Origin: Chlorobaculum sp.
Lineage (GTDB): Bacteria > Bacteroidota > Chlorobiia > Chlorobiales > Chlorobiaceae
Direction of reading: 5' to 3'
Assembly (NCBI GenBank): GCA_013334655.1
Contig: JAAXXD010000003.1
Coordinates: 1 to 63,780, forward strand
Length of the DNA: 63,780 nucleotides
Part shown: positions 37,194-41,975 of the stretch, piece by piece
Position numbering within the stretch: the first letter of the stretch is position 1
Layout of the letters: each line of letters begins with the position of its first letter
Notes under the pieces: model-generated
The model's input: the letters and a program-made list of their open reading frames with translations, nothing else
Database searches by the model: none
Told to the model about the DNA's origin: nothing
Position numbers and translations under genes: made by a program

Positions 37194-39593
37194 ATGGCTT
37201 CAAAAAGCTTCACCCCTTCGGCCAAAAACAGGACGCTCATCGTCGTCGAGTCACCCTCCAAGGCGAAAACGATCAACAAGTACTTGGGCGACAACTACAC
37301 GGTCTACGCTTCGGTCGGCCATATCAAGGATCTGCCGAAGAAGGAGATCGGCATCGACTTCGACAACCACTACGAACCGCGTTACGAAGTGATCGCGGGC
37401 AAGGAGAAGGTGGTAAAGCAGCTCAAGAAGCTTGCCGGGGAGGCCGACCGCGTGCTGATCGCCACTGACCCTGACCGCGAGGGCGAGGCAATTGCCTGGC
37501 ATATATCGAATGAAATCGATTTTGCCAAGAAGCCGGTCTTCCGCGTGCTCTTCAACGAAATCACCAGGAACGCCATCATCGAGGCGATCGGCCAGCCGCA
37601 GCAGATCGACTACCGCCTCGTCCGCTCGCAGCAGACCCGGCAGGGACTCGACAAGATCGTTGGCTACAAGATCAGCCCGTTCCTGTGGAACGTCGTCTAT
37701 CGCGGCCTCTCCGCCGGAAGGGTGCAGTCCGTGGCGCTCCGGCTGATTTGCGAACGCGAGACGGAGATCGAGGCCTTCACACCGCAGGAGTACTGGACGA
37801 TCTACGGCGATTTCATCACCGAGAGCGGCGAGACCTTCCGCACCAAGCTGGTCAAGGTGAAGGGCGAGAAGCCCGACATCACCTCCGGCGAACAGGCGGA
37901 AGCGATTGCAACGGCGATTCAGGGACGCCTCTTCGCCATCGGCGAGATTGCGCCGAAGGTGATCCAGCGCAAGCAGCCGCTCCCCTTCACCACCTCGCTC
38001 TTGCAGCAGGCGGCGTCGAACCAGCTCGGCTTCGGCTCGCAGAAGACGATGCGCACCGCGCAGCAGCTCTACGAAGGCATCGAACTCGGCTCCGAAGGCG
38101 CGACCGGTCTCATCACCTACATGCGAACCGACTCCACCCGCATCAGCGGCGAGGCGGTCGCCCAGGCGCACGACTACATCACGCAGCAGTTCGGCCCGGA
38201 TTACAAAGGCTTCGGCGGGCAGGGCAAGGCGGGCAAGAACGCCCAGGACGCGCACGAAGCGATCCGCCCGACCTCGGTGGAGCGCACACCCGAATCGCTC
38301 CGCCGCCACCTGACGCCCGACCAGTTCCGACTCTACGAGCTGATCTGGAAGCGCTTTGTCGCCTCGATGATGGCTCCGGCCAAGATCGAGCAGACTCGGG
38401 TTGACGTGGAGGATCAGAAAAAGGAGTTCGTCTTCCGCGCCACCGGCAACAAGGTGCTCTTCCCCGGCTTCTTCCGGGTCTACGACGACCAGCAGGAGCT
38501 TGACTACGAAGCGCAGAAGTCCACCCGCGACGAGGTCGAAAAGGAGCAGATCGTCAAACTGCCGGAGCGTCTCGCCGTCGATGACAAGCTGAAGATGTCC
38601 GAACTCGACCGCAAGCAGAGCTTCACCCGTCCGCCCGCCCGCTTCACCGAAGCGAGCCTCGTTAAGGATCTCGACAACTACGGCATCGGTCGTCCATCGA
38701 CCTACGCATCGATCTTCTCGACGCTTCAGGAGCGGCGCTACGTGGAGCTTCAGAAGAAAAAGATCATTCCGACCGAACTCGGACGCGACGTATCGGCAAT
38801 CCTCGTGGCCAACTTCCCCGACCTCTTCAACGTCCGCTTCACGGCGGAGATGGAGGACGAACTCGACAAGGTCGCCTCGGGGGACGACGAGTACGAAAAG
38901 GTGCTCGACGCTTTCTACCGCCCGCTCGAATCGGTGCTGAGCCACCGCAAGAGCGACCCGCTCATTCCGCAGAACCGCGATGCGGTCGTCTGCGAAAAGT
39001 GCGGCAAAGGGCACATGATCGTCAAGTGGACAGCAAGCGGCAAATTCCTCGGCTGCTCGGACTACCCGAAGTGCAAGAACATCAAAGCGATCACCACCAA
39101 CAAGGTCAAGCCGAAGGAGACCGGCGTGCGCTGCCCTGTCTGCGGCGAAGGGCACATGCTCCTGCGCAACGGACGGCTCGGCCCGTTCCTTGCCTGCTCA
39201 AACTATCCGAAGTGCAACACCCTGCTCAATCTCAGCAAGCTGCGGCACATCGAGCCGATCAAGACCCCGCCGATCACCACCGATCTCGCCTGCGCCAAAT
39301 GCGGCGCGCCGATGTATCTCCGAACCGGCAAGCGCGGCCTGTGGCTCGGGTGCTCGAAATTCCCGAAGTGCCGGGGACGCCTCTCCTGGAACACGCTCGA
39401 CGAAGCGACGCAGGCCCGCTGGGAGAAGATCATGAACGACCACATGGCCGCCCACCCGGCCGTGACCATCACGATGCTCGACGGCAAACCCGCGCCGATG
39501 AACCTCCCCATCGAAGACATCATCCTCCGCGCCGAAGACGCCGGCCTCATCACCGCCCAGAGCGAACAGCAGGAGAGTGAAGCCACAGCGTGA
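37194..39593 (+). CDS. topA: DNA topoisomerase I
   Basis: About 799 residues. The TOPRIM domain starts TLIVVESPSKAKTINKYLG with DPDREGEAIAWH; the active-site Tyr is in GLITYMRTDSTRIS; RPSTYASIFSTLQERRYV follows. The C-terminus carries three topo-type C4 zinc ribbons, each with CxxC...C(S)xxPKC: CEKCGKGH/CSDYPKC, CPVCGEGH/CSNYPKC and CAKCGAPM/CSKFPKC. It relaxes negative supercoils. The start at MASKSFTPSAK is chosen by homology. The stop lies within a hairpin. Confidence 0.96.
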   Translation: MASKSFTPSAKNRTLIVVESPSKAKTINKYLGDNYTVYASVGHIKDLPKKEIGIDFDNHYEPRYEVIAGKEKVVKQLKKLAGEADRVLIATDPDREGEAIAWHISNEIDFAKKPVFRVLFNEITRNAIIEAIGQPQQIDYRLVRSQQTRQGLDKIVGYKISPFLWNVVYRGLSAGRVQSVALRLICERETEIEAFTPQEYWTIYGDFITESGETFRTKLVKVKGEKPDITSGEQAEAIATAIQGRLFAIGEIAPKVIQRKQPLPFTTSLLQQAASNQLGFGSQKTMRTAQQLYEGIELGSEGATGLITYMRTDSTRISGEAVAQAHDYITQQFGPDYKGFGGQGKAGKNAQDAHEAIRPTSVERTPESLRRHLTPDQFRLYELIWKRFVASMMAPAKIEQTRVDVEDQKKEFVFRATGNKVLFPGFFRVYDDQQELDYEAQKSTRDEVEKEQIVKLPERLAVDDKLKMSELDRKQSFTRPPARFTEASLVKDLDNYGIGRPSTYASIFSTLQERRYVELQKKKIIPTELGRDVSAILVANFPDLFNVRFTAEMEDELDKVASGDDEYEKVLDAFYRPLESVLSHRKSDPLIPQNRDAVVCEKCGKGHMIVKWTASGKFLGCSDYPKCKNIKAITTNKVKPKETGVRCPVCGEGHMLLRNGRLGPFLACSNYPKCNTLLNLSKLRHIEPIKTPPITTDLACAKCGAPMYLRTGKRGLWLGCSKFPKCRGRLSWNTLDEATQARWEKIMNDHMAAHPAVTITMLDGKPAPMNLPIEDIILRAEDAGLITAQSEQQESEATA

Positions 39594-39601: not shown

Positions 39602-39612
39602 GGTGGGGTGGT

Positions 39613-39655
39613 AAAGACCAAAAGGACTGAAGGGACTGAAAGGACAAGAAAAAGG
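39613..39655 (+). repeat. Left AAAGGAC-type nonamer array of the four-helix-bundle cassette
   Basis: Consecutive 9-mers AAAGGACTG (39621-39629), AAGGGACTG (39630-39638) and AAAGGACAA (39639-39647), preceded by a partial AAAGACCA and followed by an A/G-rich AAAAAGGAG. It is an inverted counterpart of the array at 40262-40298. Confidence 0.8.
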
Positions 39656-39671
39656 AGTATGACACCGAGGA

Positions 39672-40241
39672 CTACTTCTCTTTGGCGCTTCTTCTCTGAA
39701 GCCGGGCTTTGGTCATGCGCTCGCGGATGCCGCCTTGTTCGAGGAAATCACTCTCGATACTTTGAAGCTGTCGATCGAGCAAATAACAGCACACTTTGAC
39801 AAGTCCAATGATGACATTCGCGCCGATTTCAGGATTTTCGTGCTCAATCCCTTTCCGGAACGTCTCGTAATCCGCATCGGGCTGCTGGTTGAGCTCCCTC
39901 AGCCGCAATGCATAAGGATGCCGCGCATCCCACTCCGGCAATCCATTGACGCGAAGAAAATCCCGATAATCGGCAAGCAGCTCTTCGAGACTCGCCCTGG
40001 CAACGTTGGTCAGTTTCAGCTCGGTCTCCTTTGATGTTCCCGAAGCCATGCTTCCCTCGATGATATTCTGCTTTCCGGAACGAGCGGCCTGAACCATCTG
40101 ATCGACGGTTCTGTCACGGCTGCTATAAAATCGCCGCGTAAAAAAGACGGTTGCATCGTAAACAATCTCTGACTTTTGATAAGAGAGCAGCTTGCGATAT
40201 CCGCCATGCGGAGGAATAATCCTGTCATCCGGCATAGTCAT
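39672..40241 (-). CDS. Four-helix-bundle (23S rRNA IVS-protein/Avd-like) suffix-domain protein
   Basis: 189 residues. IIPPHGGYRKLLSYQKSEIV, DQMVQAARSGKQNIIEGSMA, TSKETELKLTNVARASLEEL and LLADYRDFLRVNGLPEWD follow the conserved pattern of S23/IVS-type four-helix-bundle proteins with the suffix domain. Relatives include the intervening-sequence proteins of 23S rRNA and Avd of diversity-generating retroelements. The function is unknown. An ATG two codons in (MPDDRI) is an alternative start. The gene is the only one between two inverted nonamer arrays. Confidence 0.8.
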   Translation of the reverse strand: MTMPDDRIIPPHGGYRKLLSYQKSEIVYDATVFFTRRFYSSRDRTVDQMVQAARSGKQNIIEGSMASGTSKETELKLTNVARASLEELLADYRDFLRVNGLPEWDARHPYALRLRELNQQPDADYETFRKGIEHENPEIGANVIIGLVKVCCYLLDRQLQSIESDFLEQGGIRERMTKARLQRRSAKEK

Positions 40242-40250
40242 AAATTGTGG

Positions 40251-41006
40251 TTATCTATTTTCCGTCCCTTTCGTCCTTTTTGTCCTTTGCGTCTTTTTCC
40301 GCCCGGCAGGTCTCGGTTCATAAAGATACGGACACTCCTCTTTGAGAAGTTTATAGAGATGTTGAACATCAGCGCCAGGTTCATGAAAAAGCTTCTTGAA
40401 AGCCAGTCCCCTGCACAAACATTTCTTTAAATCATGCACATCCCCTGCTCCCGTCAAAATCATCTCCCCTCTGATCTCGCCAAATCGCGCCTCATAAAAC
40501 AGGTTACTGATTTCCTCCAATGCTGTTAAGGCAAGCTCGTCGTCACCCTCAGGAAATTCTCCGATAACCTCATTTGCCAAAAAAACCTCCTTGTCATAAT
40601 GCGCTGAATATTTCTTTCTTGCCGTATAAATCGCGCCATTTTTCCTGTCACGAAATGAAGGTGGTATGCGAGCCAACGCTCCATTGACTGACTCTTTCAA
40701 CTGCTCACTCCAACCAAATTTCGCATCGTTCAGAATATTCTCGACACTGAAATTTTCGACACCGCACGATTTTGGTGGCCCCAGCAATTTTGAAAATTCG
40801 AGACACAGATAATTGACTAAAACATCTCGTATCAATACAAAAAATCGCCCTGCTGCCTTTTGCAAAAGAATACGATCTTCCTCGGCATCAACGAGCTGCT
40901 TGAGCGTGTAATGATATATTTTCAAATCATGCACGGCATTGGAAAACCGTTTCACGATTTCGTTGAGACGTGCCGCCTTCTCGTCTGAGTTTGGATTTGA
41001 AATCAT
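40251..41006 (-). CDS. HEPN-like (AbiU2-type) protein
   Basis: 251 residues, alpha-helical. A long helix pair (LNEIVKRFSNAVHDLKIYHY, FFVLIRDVLVNYLCLEFSKL) is followed by RKKYSAH, an R-x5-H motif in the position typical of HEPN ribonucleases, with an AbiU2-like overall pattern. It could be an abortive-infection or other defence RNase, but the assignment rests on pattern only. An AAAGGGA ribosome site precedes the ATG. The last 16 codons (RKKTQRTKRTKGTENR) are encoded by the AAAGGAC array and look added on. Confidence 0.5.
   Translation of the reverse strand: MISNPNSDEKAARLNEIVKRFSNAVHDLKIYHYTLKQLVDAEEDRILLQKAAGRFFVLIRDVLVNYLCLEFSKLLGPPKSCGVENFSVENILNDAKFGWSEQLKESVNGALARIPPSFRDRKNGAIYTARKKYSAHYDKEVFLANEVIGEFPEGDDELALTALEEISNLFYEARFGEIRGEMILTGAGDVHDLKKCLCRGLAFKKLFHEPGADVQHLYKLLKEECPYLYEPRPAGRKKTQRTKRTKGTENR
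40262..40298 (-). repeat. Right AAAGGAC-type nonamer array of the four-helix-bundle cassette
   Basis: On the minus strand, AAAGGACAA (40280-40288), AAAGGACGA (40271-40279) and AAGGGACGG (40262-40270) are contiguous, preceded by AAAAAGACGC. It is the inverted match of 39613-39655, both arrays pointing towards the four-helix-bundle gene. It also encodes the C-terminus of the HEPN-like gene. Confidence 0.8.
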
Positions 41007-41192: not shown

Positions 41193-41510
41193 TCAGTTCA
41201 TTATACGATTTTCCTGCCAGTTCAACAGCATTGCTCTTAGTGATGATCTCTTCCGAGGCTGCCATGTCGAGAAGCTGCCGAAGCCGAGATCAACCATTTT
41301 CCTGACGTCGGCAAAATGGTCATGCTCATGATGGCCAGAAACCTCACAGGCGGTCTTCGCCTTTGTGACGACGTTCAAAAAGTTATCCCATTTGCTGTAA
41401 CCCAGCAGTTGCTGAAGGTCACGCGCAAGCCAGAATTCTACACCGCCTTCAGTTTGCCGCGCATGGGCTTCAAAAGAGGCTGTCAGCGAATGAATCTGTT
41501 CGGTTTTCAT
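41193..41510 (-). pseudogene. Truncated DinD-like (DNA-damage-inducible D) gene
   Basis: 105 residues. The first 75 (GVEFWLARDLQQLLGYSKWD, NVVTKAKTACEVSGHHEHDH, FADVRKMVDLG) match the N-terminal BRO-like domain of DinD, whose intact form is about 270 residues. After MVDLG the sequence diverges and soon stops; in another frame the same strand reads RQLLDMAASEEIITKSNAVE to a stop at 41176. Two gene fragments therefore seem to be joined. Confidence 0.6.
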
Positions 41511-41681: not shown

Positions 41682-41975
41682 CTATTGAGCAATGGATTGC
41701 GAATTTTGAAATACTCCGCTCTCGCCATTACATCTGAGAATACGATTTCGATCCCGATTTCGATGCCGCATCACATCCACAGCAGCGCGAGGCGGTAGGT
41801 GATGAATGACGCTATCCACGCCACCGCCACCCGTAGCGCGTTCATACACCTTGTATGGAGTTTTGTATCCCAGCGACTGATGCGGTCGCTCCGTGTTGTA
41901 AAGCTTGAAGTACTCCGCTAAACCTGCATCAATGCAACCACTCATCCATAGCCTTTCAAGTAGAGGTATTCATCT
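41682..41975 (-). pseudogene. IS3-family transposase remnant (C-terminal rve_3 part)
   Basis: YFKLYNTERPHQSLGYKTPY plus KVYERA is the end of the OrfB integrase domain of IS3 elements. Upstream, in another frame, EYLYLKGYG (about 41950-41975) fits the same protein, so at least one frameshift is present. Everything before that is missing. The tail after KVYERATGGG is not family-like and includes a short RHRNRDRNR repeat. The surrounding 500 bp hold no other recognisable gene. Confidence 0.75.

Follow-up and report, generated by a model that had tools for sequence, protein, structure and literature searches.

How does a single gene for an all-helical protein come to lie between two inverted arrays of short tandem repeats, and what are these arrays to the protein? 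The question is raised by a locus in a 63,780-base stretch of the genome of a Chlorobaculum species (assembly GCA_013334655.1, contig JAAXXD010000003.1), the whole of which is called the window below, in which a gene of the S23/Avd superfamily is framed by arrays of AAAGGAC-type nonamers. The answer that we favor, with a probability of about 0.70, is that S23/Avd-superfamily proteins define single-gene elements whose ends are cognate tandem arrays. The same frame surrounds homologous genes in several phyla, the period and the unit of the repeats agree with the protein, arrays without the gene are dispersed in genomes, and some plasmid alleles of related genes lack gene and arrays together; that the protein binds the arrays and that the element is mobile is what these sequence comparisons suggest. 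The parts of the element in the window are the following.

39612-39645, plus strand: left terminal array of AARGGACNN units, three clear and one weak, pointing inward
39672-40241, minus strand: gene for a four-helix-bundle suffix-domain protein of the S23/IVP superfamily, 189 aa (TIGR04258, TIGR02436, AlphaFold2, Foldseek)
40264-40297, minus strand: right terminal array of four AARGGACNN units, pointing inward

Tandem-array frames around S23/Avd-superfamily genes

The clear left units occupy 39621-39645 on the plus strand (AAAGGACTG, AAGGGACTG and AAAGGAC) and a weaker fourth unit, with 2 mismatches, begins at 39612, whilst the units of the right array read, on the minus strand, AAAAGACGC, AAAGGACAA, AAAGGACGA and AAGGGAC. 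An initial annotation of this DNA had recognized a gene of the S23/IVS-Avd family between inward-pointing inverted arrays of 9-mers, as we do here, but had counted three units per array, where there are about four; it had also set the left array directly against topA, which ends at 39593, 18-27 bp before the array begins. Three successive AARGGACNN units, with at most one mismatch, match the window three times (two of the matches overlapping), always at this locus, against an expectation of 0.00 from 100 shuffles of its 63,780 bases.

The encoded protein scores 73.9 bits against TIGR04258 (cut-off 40; residues 137-185), which makes it a suffix protein, and 26.2 bits against TIGR02436 (cut-off 24), which places it in the S23/IVP superfamily. 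Its sole Pfam match up to E 1, PF05635, lies at 25.4 bits under the 33.8 cut-off, and no relative was found in the PDB by sequence at E up to 1. The AlphaFold2 monomer, built on 72 sequences, is made up of helices throughout, with a predicted local distance difference test (pLDDT) score of 92, and is matched by Foldseek to four chains of 2rld (BT_0352, S23 family; probability 0.60-0.97) and to chain B of 8ub7, a diversity-generating retroelement complex (probability 0.91, TM 0.69 by target), a chain that we read as Avd. A classic member of the superfamily, that is, one without the suffix (L345), matches the Avd family phrog_3206 with E 8e-12. Residues Q48, S55, N59, E62, S84 and E87 are kept at 99-100% in 72 suffix and 35 classic proteins, six classic loci (with stops, or short) having been left out of this comparison and of the tree analysis discussed below.

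Suffix-type genes were compared at 110 loci, 30 of them from 61 genomes of the family (Chlorobiaceae) and the best 80 from GTDB species genomes. Their record titles include Chlorobi, Ignavibacteria, Bacteroidota, Lentisphaerae, Planctomycetes, Verrucomicrobia, Geomonas, Thiocystis and Desulfobacteraceae, and many of the records are metagenome bins; six duplicate loci were retained in the initial period scans and in the unit census, and removed from the near/distal, flank-agreement, layout and neighbor counts. When periods 4 to 20 were scanned in 250-bp flanks at a threshold of at least 24/34, period 9 was found in 29/214 flanks, period 18 in 13, period 12 in one and all remaining periods in none, the rate for period 9 in shuffles being 0.000; with a 27-base window, 76/214 flanks reach 18, as compared to 0.5% of shuffles. 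Beside the genes, period 9 is present in 70/202 near windows versus 15/905 distal ones, and periods 6, 7, 8, 10 and 11 in 2 or 3/202 near windows each.

The layout of these frames is also recurrent. In the 15 loci printed, the common order is >>>> <<<< gene <<<<, or the same with an extra >>>> ahead of the last array. Upstream arrays are in plus orientation in 43/47 cases when more than 60 bp from the gene and in minus orientation in 28/41 when within 60 bp, downstream arrays are minus in 32/43, and in flanks holding both orientations the plus array comes first in 24/25. Arrays of the AAAGGAC class have four units in 95/186 array calls (which include some overlapping loci), three in 54, five in 28 and more in 9. 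The unit itself varies by locus (AAAGGAC, CAAGGAC, ATGGGAC, TTGGGAC, ATAGGAC, ATGGAC, ATCNGAC and others), the best shared anchor being GAC, in 122/168 arrays, followed by GGA in 95; some of the other unit classes (ATCNGAC) include GATC. Loci with fewer than three GAC-anchored units aside, the two flanks of one gene agree in unit class (similarity 0.724 versus 0.503 +- 0.024 for shuffled partners; 28 loci) and the distance between units follows the distance between proteins (Mantel r 0.26, p 0.0006; 69 loci).

A control set of 30 short TIGR02436-type genes from a phylum sample, where arrays were not expected, turned out to be framed as well, at a different period. Twenty-seven of these genes had full flanks, the three short classic loci being dropped from the period counts, and at a threshold of at least 22/34 period 7 appears in 22/54 flanks (0 in shuffles), period 8 in 7/54 and period 9 in 1/54; examples are TCAGTAA at L333, TCAGGAG upstream and CTGACTT (TCAGAAG inverted) downstream at L332, and AGTATAA / TTATACT at L329. 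On cyanobacterial plasmids, for which 12 of 17 matching records were taken and one near-copy (L349) was dropped, 19/22 flanks of classic genes lie above the 99.5% null level at period 7, with units such as AGTAGGG / TCCCTAC (L345) and AACAGGG / CTGTTCC (L346). For 38 classic loci, near and distal windows compare as 46/76 versus 13/152 at period 7, 10 versus 0 at period 8 and 2 versus 0 at period 9, and when the period-7 label is mapped onto a tree of 35 classic proteins, 6 changes suffice, versus 9.5 when shuffled (as low in 3/500). The period thus appears to go with the protein and to have changed several times; unit length would be a subfamily trait (9 bp in the suffix type; mostly 7, sometimes 8 bp in classic S23 proteins), and unit sequence seems to be lineage-specific. 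A survey of suffix-domain genes for end arrays, as advocated by the initial annotation, does recover a period-9 frame beside homologues in several phyla, but AAAGGAC, the 9-bp length, the Chlorobi and the suffix domain are not exclusive to it. Since the frame is found at other periods, with other unit classes, in other phyla and around classic S23 genes, that first interpretation was too narrow.

Dispersed arrays, alleles without the element and neighboring genes

The genome to which the window belongs (2.43 Mb in 146 contigs, 84.5% complete) contains, at up to two mismatches, 27 pattern matches at 20 places, two of which are the pair in the window; the reversed control gives 0, and a simple scan found no AAAGGAC array at the four other TIGR02436 genes found in the same genome. 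Arrays without the gene at unrelated sites, which had been named beforehand as grounds for abandoning the idea of an element, are therefore present, but these array pairs look like derivatives that lack the gene, and it is in this sense, rather than as a refutation, that we read them. Over the 61 genomes of the family the AAAGGAC pattern has 662 matches and the reversed pattern 10. The match count tracks the score of the best gene (Spearman 0.71, p 1e-10, with no phylogenetic control), and at least three matches are found in 19/21 genomes with a gene match of at least 200 bits versus 6/40 others (Fisher 9e-9, again with no phylogenetic control); in a second genus alone, the figures are 9/10 versus 1/30. 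Several array classes coexist within one genome. Where the gene is framed by ATGGAC units (L061, genome G032), there are 121 ATGGAC pattern matches and 0 for AAAGGAC, and genome G030 combines 123 AAAGGAC matches with 57 ATGGAC matches, some of the latter beside an apparently broken gene on contig C75. Among 16 genomes searched, only G011 has TCAGTNA arrays, and its S23 gene is framed by TCAGTAA units; these arrays include TCAGTTA, the reverse complement of TAACTGA.

From G030, 19 stretches were printed, seven of which were picked because both arrays were listed. At least 11 of them are inverted pairs in which each side has about four units and the loop measures tens of bases; by eye, no sequence is common to the flanks. 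A set of 47 solo AAAGGAC rows, in which one site is counted twice and 11 rows overlap a long stop-to-stop frame, places 24 between tandem genes, 15 between convergent and 6 between divergent ones, with 2 undetermined. From 12 places chosen by eye, five were aligned: one has different array classes in different relatives, and the rest have shared or decayed arrays. Near G016:C9:384600, the same intergenic position (in G016, G014 and G008) is occupied by an inverted pair of the TTGGGAC class in two of the relatives and by an array of the ATC class in the third, as if classes replaced each other. Nonamer arrays of ATCCGACTC/CCC lie at G020:C83:13638-13779 and on other contigs of G020, a genome in which no four-helix suffix gene was found. 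Looser searches were of little use: a GAC/period-9 detector run on three relatives (400, 400 and 280 kb) returned 34, 30 and 28 sites versus 12-72 for five other trinucleotides, swamped by codon-driven matches, and a loose RGAC pattern, with 7 sites spread over 3 genomes, did not outperform its control in two of these.

Alleles lacking the element were read on plasmids, and all of them concern 7-bp classic relatives, not the 9-bp type of the window. In Nostoc sp. ATCC 53789, the plasmids pNsp_a and pNsp_c have pieces of an operon in common (91-99% identity); the gene occupies a different junction in each, and each is empty at the junction where the other is filled. The element of L352 ends at its arrays, with TTCTA on both sides, a feature of L352 only; that of L341 ends at its array on the left, and about 37 bp past its right array find no match in the empty allele. 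The site between an integrase gene and the next gene is filled in two Calothrix NIES-22 plasmids, the only two among 41 matching records to cover at least 80% of the query; neither gene nor array is present there in L353, L354 and L355 (91-92%), and L356 (81%) carries a different gene. The nrdB-nrdA junction is filled in Nostoc edaphicum and empty in Calothrix NIES-4105 (85.5%). The cas6-cas4 junction is filled in Anabaena 90 (L350) and Pseudanabaena CCNP1313 (L351), and has neither gene nor array in Nostoc UHCC 0302 (L359). In Dolichospermum UHCC 0315A (L357; 99.4% flanks) a different 245-bp stretch replaces the gene, and by comparison the element of L350 spans the first to the last array, the cas4 start as in L357 being missing. 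This stretch (709-953 of L357) has inverted sequences (GTAGGTTGGGTT / AACCCAACCTAC) and resembles a miniature inverted-repeat transposable element.

By the period scan there is no array in L353, L354, L355, L358, L359 and the reciprocal sites of L341 and L352, where the best period-7 score is 0.38-0.57, versus 0.81 at L360, to which we return below. In three cases (L352, integrase, nrdB-nrdA) both boundaries of the element coincide with arrays, within about 15 bp by eye, and no other annotated gene lies inside. The proposal of the initial annotation that the arrays are the ends of a small element is thereby supported, both by the common frame around homologues and by these joint absences, and the comparison with empty sites that it called for was possible for classic genes on plasmids, though not, with exact ends, for the 9-bp type. 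Carriage of the suffix type by phages or plasmids is rejected, with matches in 0/50,697 phage and 1/72,556 plasmid records.

On its right side, the element in the window adjoins one further gene.

40251-41006, minus strand: AbiU2-type HEPN gene (PF18734, 33.7 bits)

The last 16 codons of this gene, which ends at 40251, had been attributed to the right array; they do lie in and just past it, but the array itself, with 34 bp, accounts for about 11. At the orthologous locus L034 the HEPN frame ends before the array, and the array-coded tail in the window is hence most simply explained as read-through after loss of a stop codon. A role for AbiU2 as part of the element is rejected on this ground and because it adjoins the gene in just 4/104 loci (L033, L034, L035 and L037); it is probably a neighbor. 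Past AbiU2, 41193-41510 holds a truncated gene, a fragment that matches residues 1-79 of DNA damage-inducible protein D (PRK11525; 98 bits, under the cut-off of 242), and 41682-41945 a C-terminal piece of an IS481/IS3-type transposase (rve_3); the region from topA to about 41770 is an accessory block absent from several relatives. Elsewhere, the commonest neighbor family looks, from a reading of its sequences, like an acyl-CoA ligase in Chlorobi, and no family occurs in more than 10/104 loci. Two families with 7 loci each look like type I restriction-modification genes (L076, L083, L087, L090, L092, L117 and L131; Bacteroidota and others).

Proposed mechanism and competing explanations

If the reading favored here is correct, the locus in the window is one copy of a mobile element, the only gene of which encodes the S23/Avd four-helix-bundle protein. 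This protein would recognize the inverted end arrays of about four tandem units, most likely as single-stranded DNA or RNA, with 7-9 nt per protomer. An S23 ring, such as the pentamer cited for Xcc0516 (PMC4990558), may contact one unit per protomer, a step that we hold to be much less probable than the reading as a whole; the length of the unit would then reflect the protomer, the suffix type having the longest period. The bound ends would be brought together and the cassette, or a solo derivative, moved by the action of the protein, possibly with host enzymes. Gene-less inverted array pairs would be non-autonomous derivatives, mostly intergenic, as repetitive extragenic palindromes (REPs) and their hairpin-forming doublets (REPINs) are to REP-associated tyrosine transposases (RAYTs). 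That the four-helix-bundle protein is the partner of the arrays, as was suggested initially, gains indirect support from unit class, which follows the protein, and from array load, which follows the gene.

Several observations weigh against this reading. No transposition was observed, mobility being only inferred; Pfam and TIGR profile searches find no transposase, nuclease or other recognizable catalytic domain in the window protein, and the Foldseek E-values are weak (0.27-1.2), among many unrelated helical proteins. No period-9 window at 16/27 or more exists in 27/110 suffix-type loci, and about 5% of shuffled flanks pass this cut, so that some of the 83 passing loci are due to chance; some Bacteroidota copies lie in apparent type I restriction clusters, many with weak arrays. 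As regards the classic genes, L313, L315, L316, L320 and L321 do not reach the period cut, L336 is best at period 9, period 6 is found in 7/76 near windows versus 0 distal ones, and the period-8 label alone is unclustered on the tree (4 changes versus 4.7, as low in 126/500). Arrays beside a gene are inherited with it, and the agreement between flanks and with the protein is hence no proof of recognition, dispersal providing the better test. In the dispersal survey, 2/21 genomes with a gene match of at least 200 bits have fewer than three AAAGGAC matches, the genus of the window taken alone yields 10/11 versus 5/10 (p 0.06), and arrays occur with no gene found in G022 (61 AAAGGAC matches), G020 (118 ATGGAC) and G014 (6 AAAGGAC). 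The reversed-pattern control of the TCAGTNA search is not empty (88 matches in G015, 8 in G107 and 3 in G011), even though we read those of G015 as its own AGTAGTC-class arrays, seen at L340. Finally, no empty site with exact ends is available for the 9-bp type, the intergenic DNA around topA being too diverged in relatives without the gene, and target-site duplication is inconsistent across the plasmid sites read: outside L352 there are small losses or unclear ends, with no duplication and about 12-15 bp lost at the integrase and nrdB-nrdA sites.

An alternative that dispenses with strict mobility is a regulon at the RNA level, in which the protein acts as a regulator by binding to transcripts that carry arrays, its own among them, and the arrays spread or arise through the benefit to host genes. 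S23 genes are known to lie in RNA elements (PMC4990558), the TAACTGA arrays of Beggiatoaceae have been proposed as translational control sites (PMC4679880) and few solo AAAGGAC sites are located between divergent genes (6/47 rows), all of which would fit. Nonetheless, gene and arrays behave as a block that sits in unrelated operons and is jointly absent from other alleles, and neither the presence of several array classes in one genome nor the inverted arrays at both ends is accommodated well, which leads us to regard this explanation as unlikely.

It also seems improbable that the decisive feature is a stem between the two inverted arrays, either a cruciform or an RNA hairpin like that of the 23S rRNA intervening sequences (IVS), with unit repetition as a by-product. 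The arrays are certainly inward inverted pairs, with the order of orientations reported above, and the IVS of Coxiella has terminal inverted repeats forming a 28-bp stem (PMC4990558). Yet when the two arms of 37 AAAGGAC-class pairs are compared in register, their spacers agree at shuffle level (59/202, or 0.292, versus 0.272 +- 0.031; as high in 126/500), while the core of the unit and the period are conserved. A shift by one unit brings the agreement slightly above that of shuffles (0.342 and 0.338, values equalled in 14 and 38 of 500), a point for the hairpin and a further one against the reading that we favor, and a shift by two units gives no excess over shuffles. Weak spacer agreement combined with a kept core and period implies that selection acts more to maintain unit and period within an array than to preserve the exact pairing of one array with the other, and a co-evolving stem is thus probably not what is kept. 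A known RNA family is rejected: for 14 loci, cmscan returned 41 matches up to E 1, of which none attained its gathering score and most were to long-hairpin miRNA models.

Similarly improbable is the notion that the arrays come first, as microsatellite-like repeats made by slippage, and that the gene landed in them or recombined between them. Solo arrays are indeed common and of variable length, with up to 11 units at L080, and one intergenic site holds different array classes in relatives. Moreover, the gene-less cas6-cas4 junction of Pseudanabaena ABRG5-3 (L360) has, at about 870-905, a solo heptamer array of AATTACG units, of a class other than that of the CCNP1313 element, and this too counts against an element defined by its ends. 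The other gene-less alleles, however, have no array by the period scan, period and unit track the protein, and slippage predicts neither the inverted orientation nor the same class on both sides. A defence function is rejected, in that neither of the two window proteins submitted to PADLOC has a match up to E 0.1.

Comparison with known systems

Single-gene elements of the kind proposed here have their counterpart, on the protein side, in the IVS of 23S rRNA genes that carry an S23 open reading frame: the superfamily is the same and the gene lies between inverted terminal sequences. The IVS is described as a selfish element, the reading frame of which served mobility according to an old proposal (PMC4990558), and its 28-bp stem in Coxiella amounts to four units of 7. 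The window-type element differs in lying outside rRNA genes (here between topA and the AbiU2 gene, and not in a 23S rRNA helix), in having tandem arrays of 7, 8 or 9 bp as ends, in its dispersed solo copies and in its presence in operons and plasmids.

The classic frames also resemble the intergenic heptamer repeats (TAACTGA, GGGAATC and cyanobacterial heptanucleotides), with which they share period 7 and the array form, and TAACTGA-type arrays occur in G011 together with a TCAGTAA-framed S23 gene. The published repeats, on the other hand, are described as ownerless, with no associated gene and no evident mechanism or function (PMC4679880, PMC6344855), whereas those reported here are tied to S23 genes. 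For the TAACTGA arrays of Beggiatoaceae, Cyanobacteria and Bacteroidetes it is stated that 'no mechanism is evident', and neither S23 nor a four helix bundle is mentioned in the main text (PMC4679880); the GGGAATC arrays of Xanthomonas mostly have four units and some are inverted (PMC4692102). We predict that the latter belong to the Xanthomonas S23 gene, and the cyanobacterial heptamer-S23 link is shown for plasmid genes only. The multicopy intergenic sequences of Geobacter bemidjiensis are likewise intergenic direct repeats, of 6 to 42 nt, with an insertion called not random and, in their description, no stated gene association (PMC2996986). Among the matches listed in a search of the open-access literature (hence without subscription papers and preprints), no paper ties S23/IVP proteins to tandem arrays.

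Linking S23 proteins with repeats endows the protein with a substrate, the repeats with an owner and both with a direct test, and it suggests where intergenic heptamer repeats, left without an explanation in published surveys, come from. The broader proposal, that S23/Avd single-gene elements are a categorically new class in which arrays are read one unit per protomer, the subfamily sets the period at 7, 8 or 9, and solo arrays explain much of the prokaryotic heptamer repeats (TAACTGA, Xanthomonas GGGAATC and cyanobacterial heptanucleotides), has in our estimation about even odds. Should protomers read units singly, exchanging the length and sequence of the unit from one subfamily to another would reveal how nucleic acid is read by a four-helix bundle, and a new kind of mobile element would be added to the few known. 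Similarity in fold (8ub7 chain B) and in profile (phrog_3206, for L345) relates these proteins to the Avd of diversity-generating retroelements as well; no reverse transcriptase was recognized among the 15 commonest neighbor families of the 104 loci, a search aimed at it not having been made.

RAYT genes are flanked by short REP repeats, and the same repeat class is dispersed in intergenic DNA as inverted pairs. The elements analyzed in this work present the same picture, for cognate short repeats both flank the gene and are dispersed intergenically as inverted pairs, with G022, G020 and G014 as exceptions. They depart from it in their protein, a four-helix bundle with no match to a HUH (Y1) transposase in Pfam up to E 1, and in their repeats, since AARGGACNN units form tandem, non-palindromic arrays instead of palindromes. 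By analogy, we conclude that S23/Avd-type elements would work like REP/RAYT systems, but with an unrelated protein.

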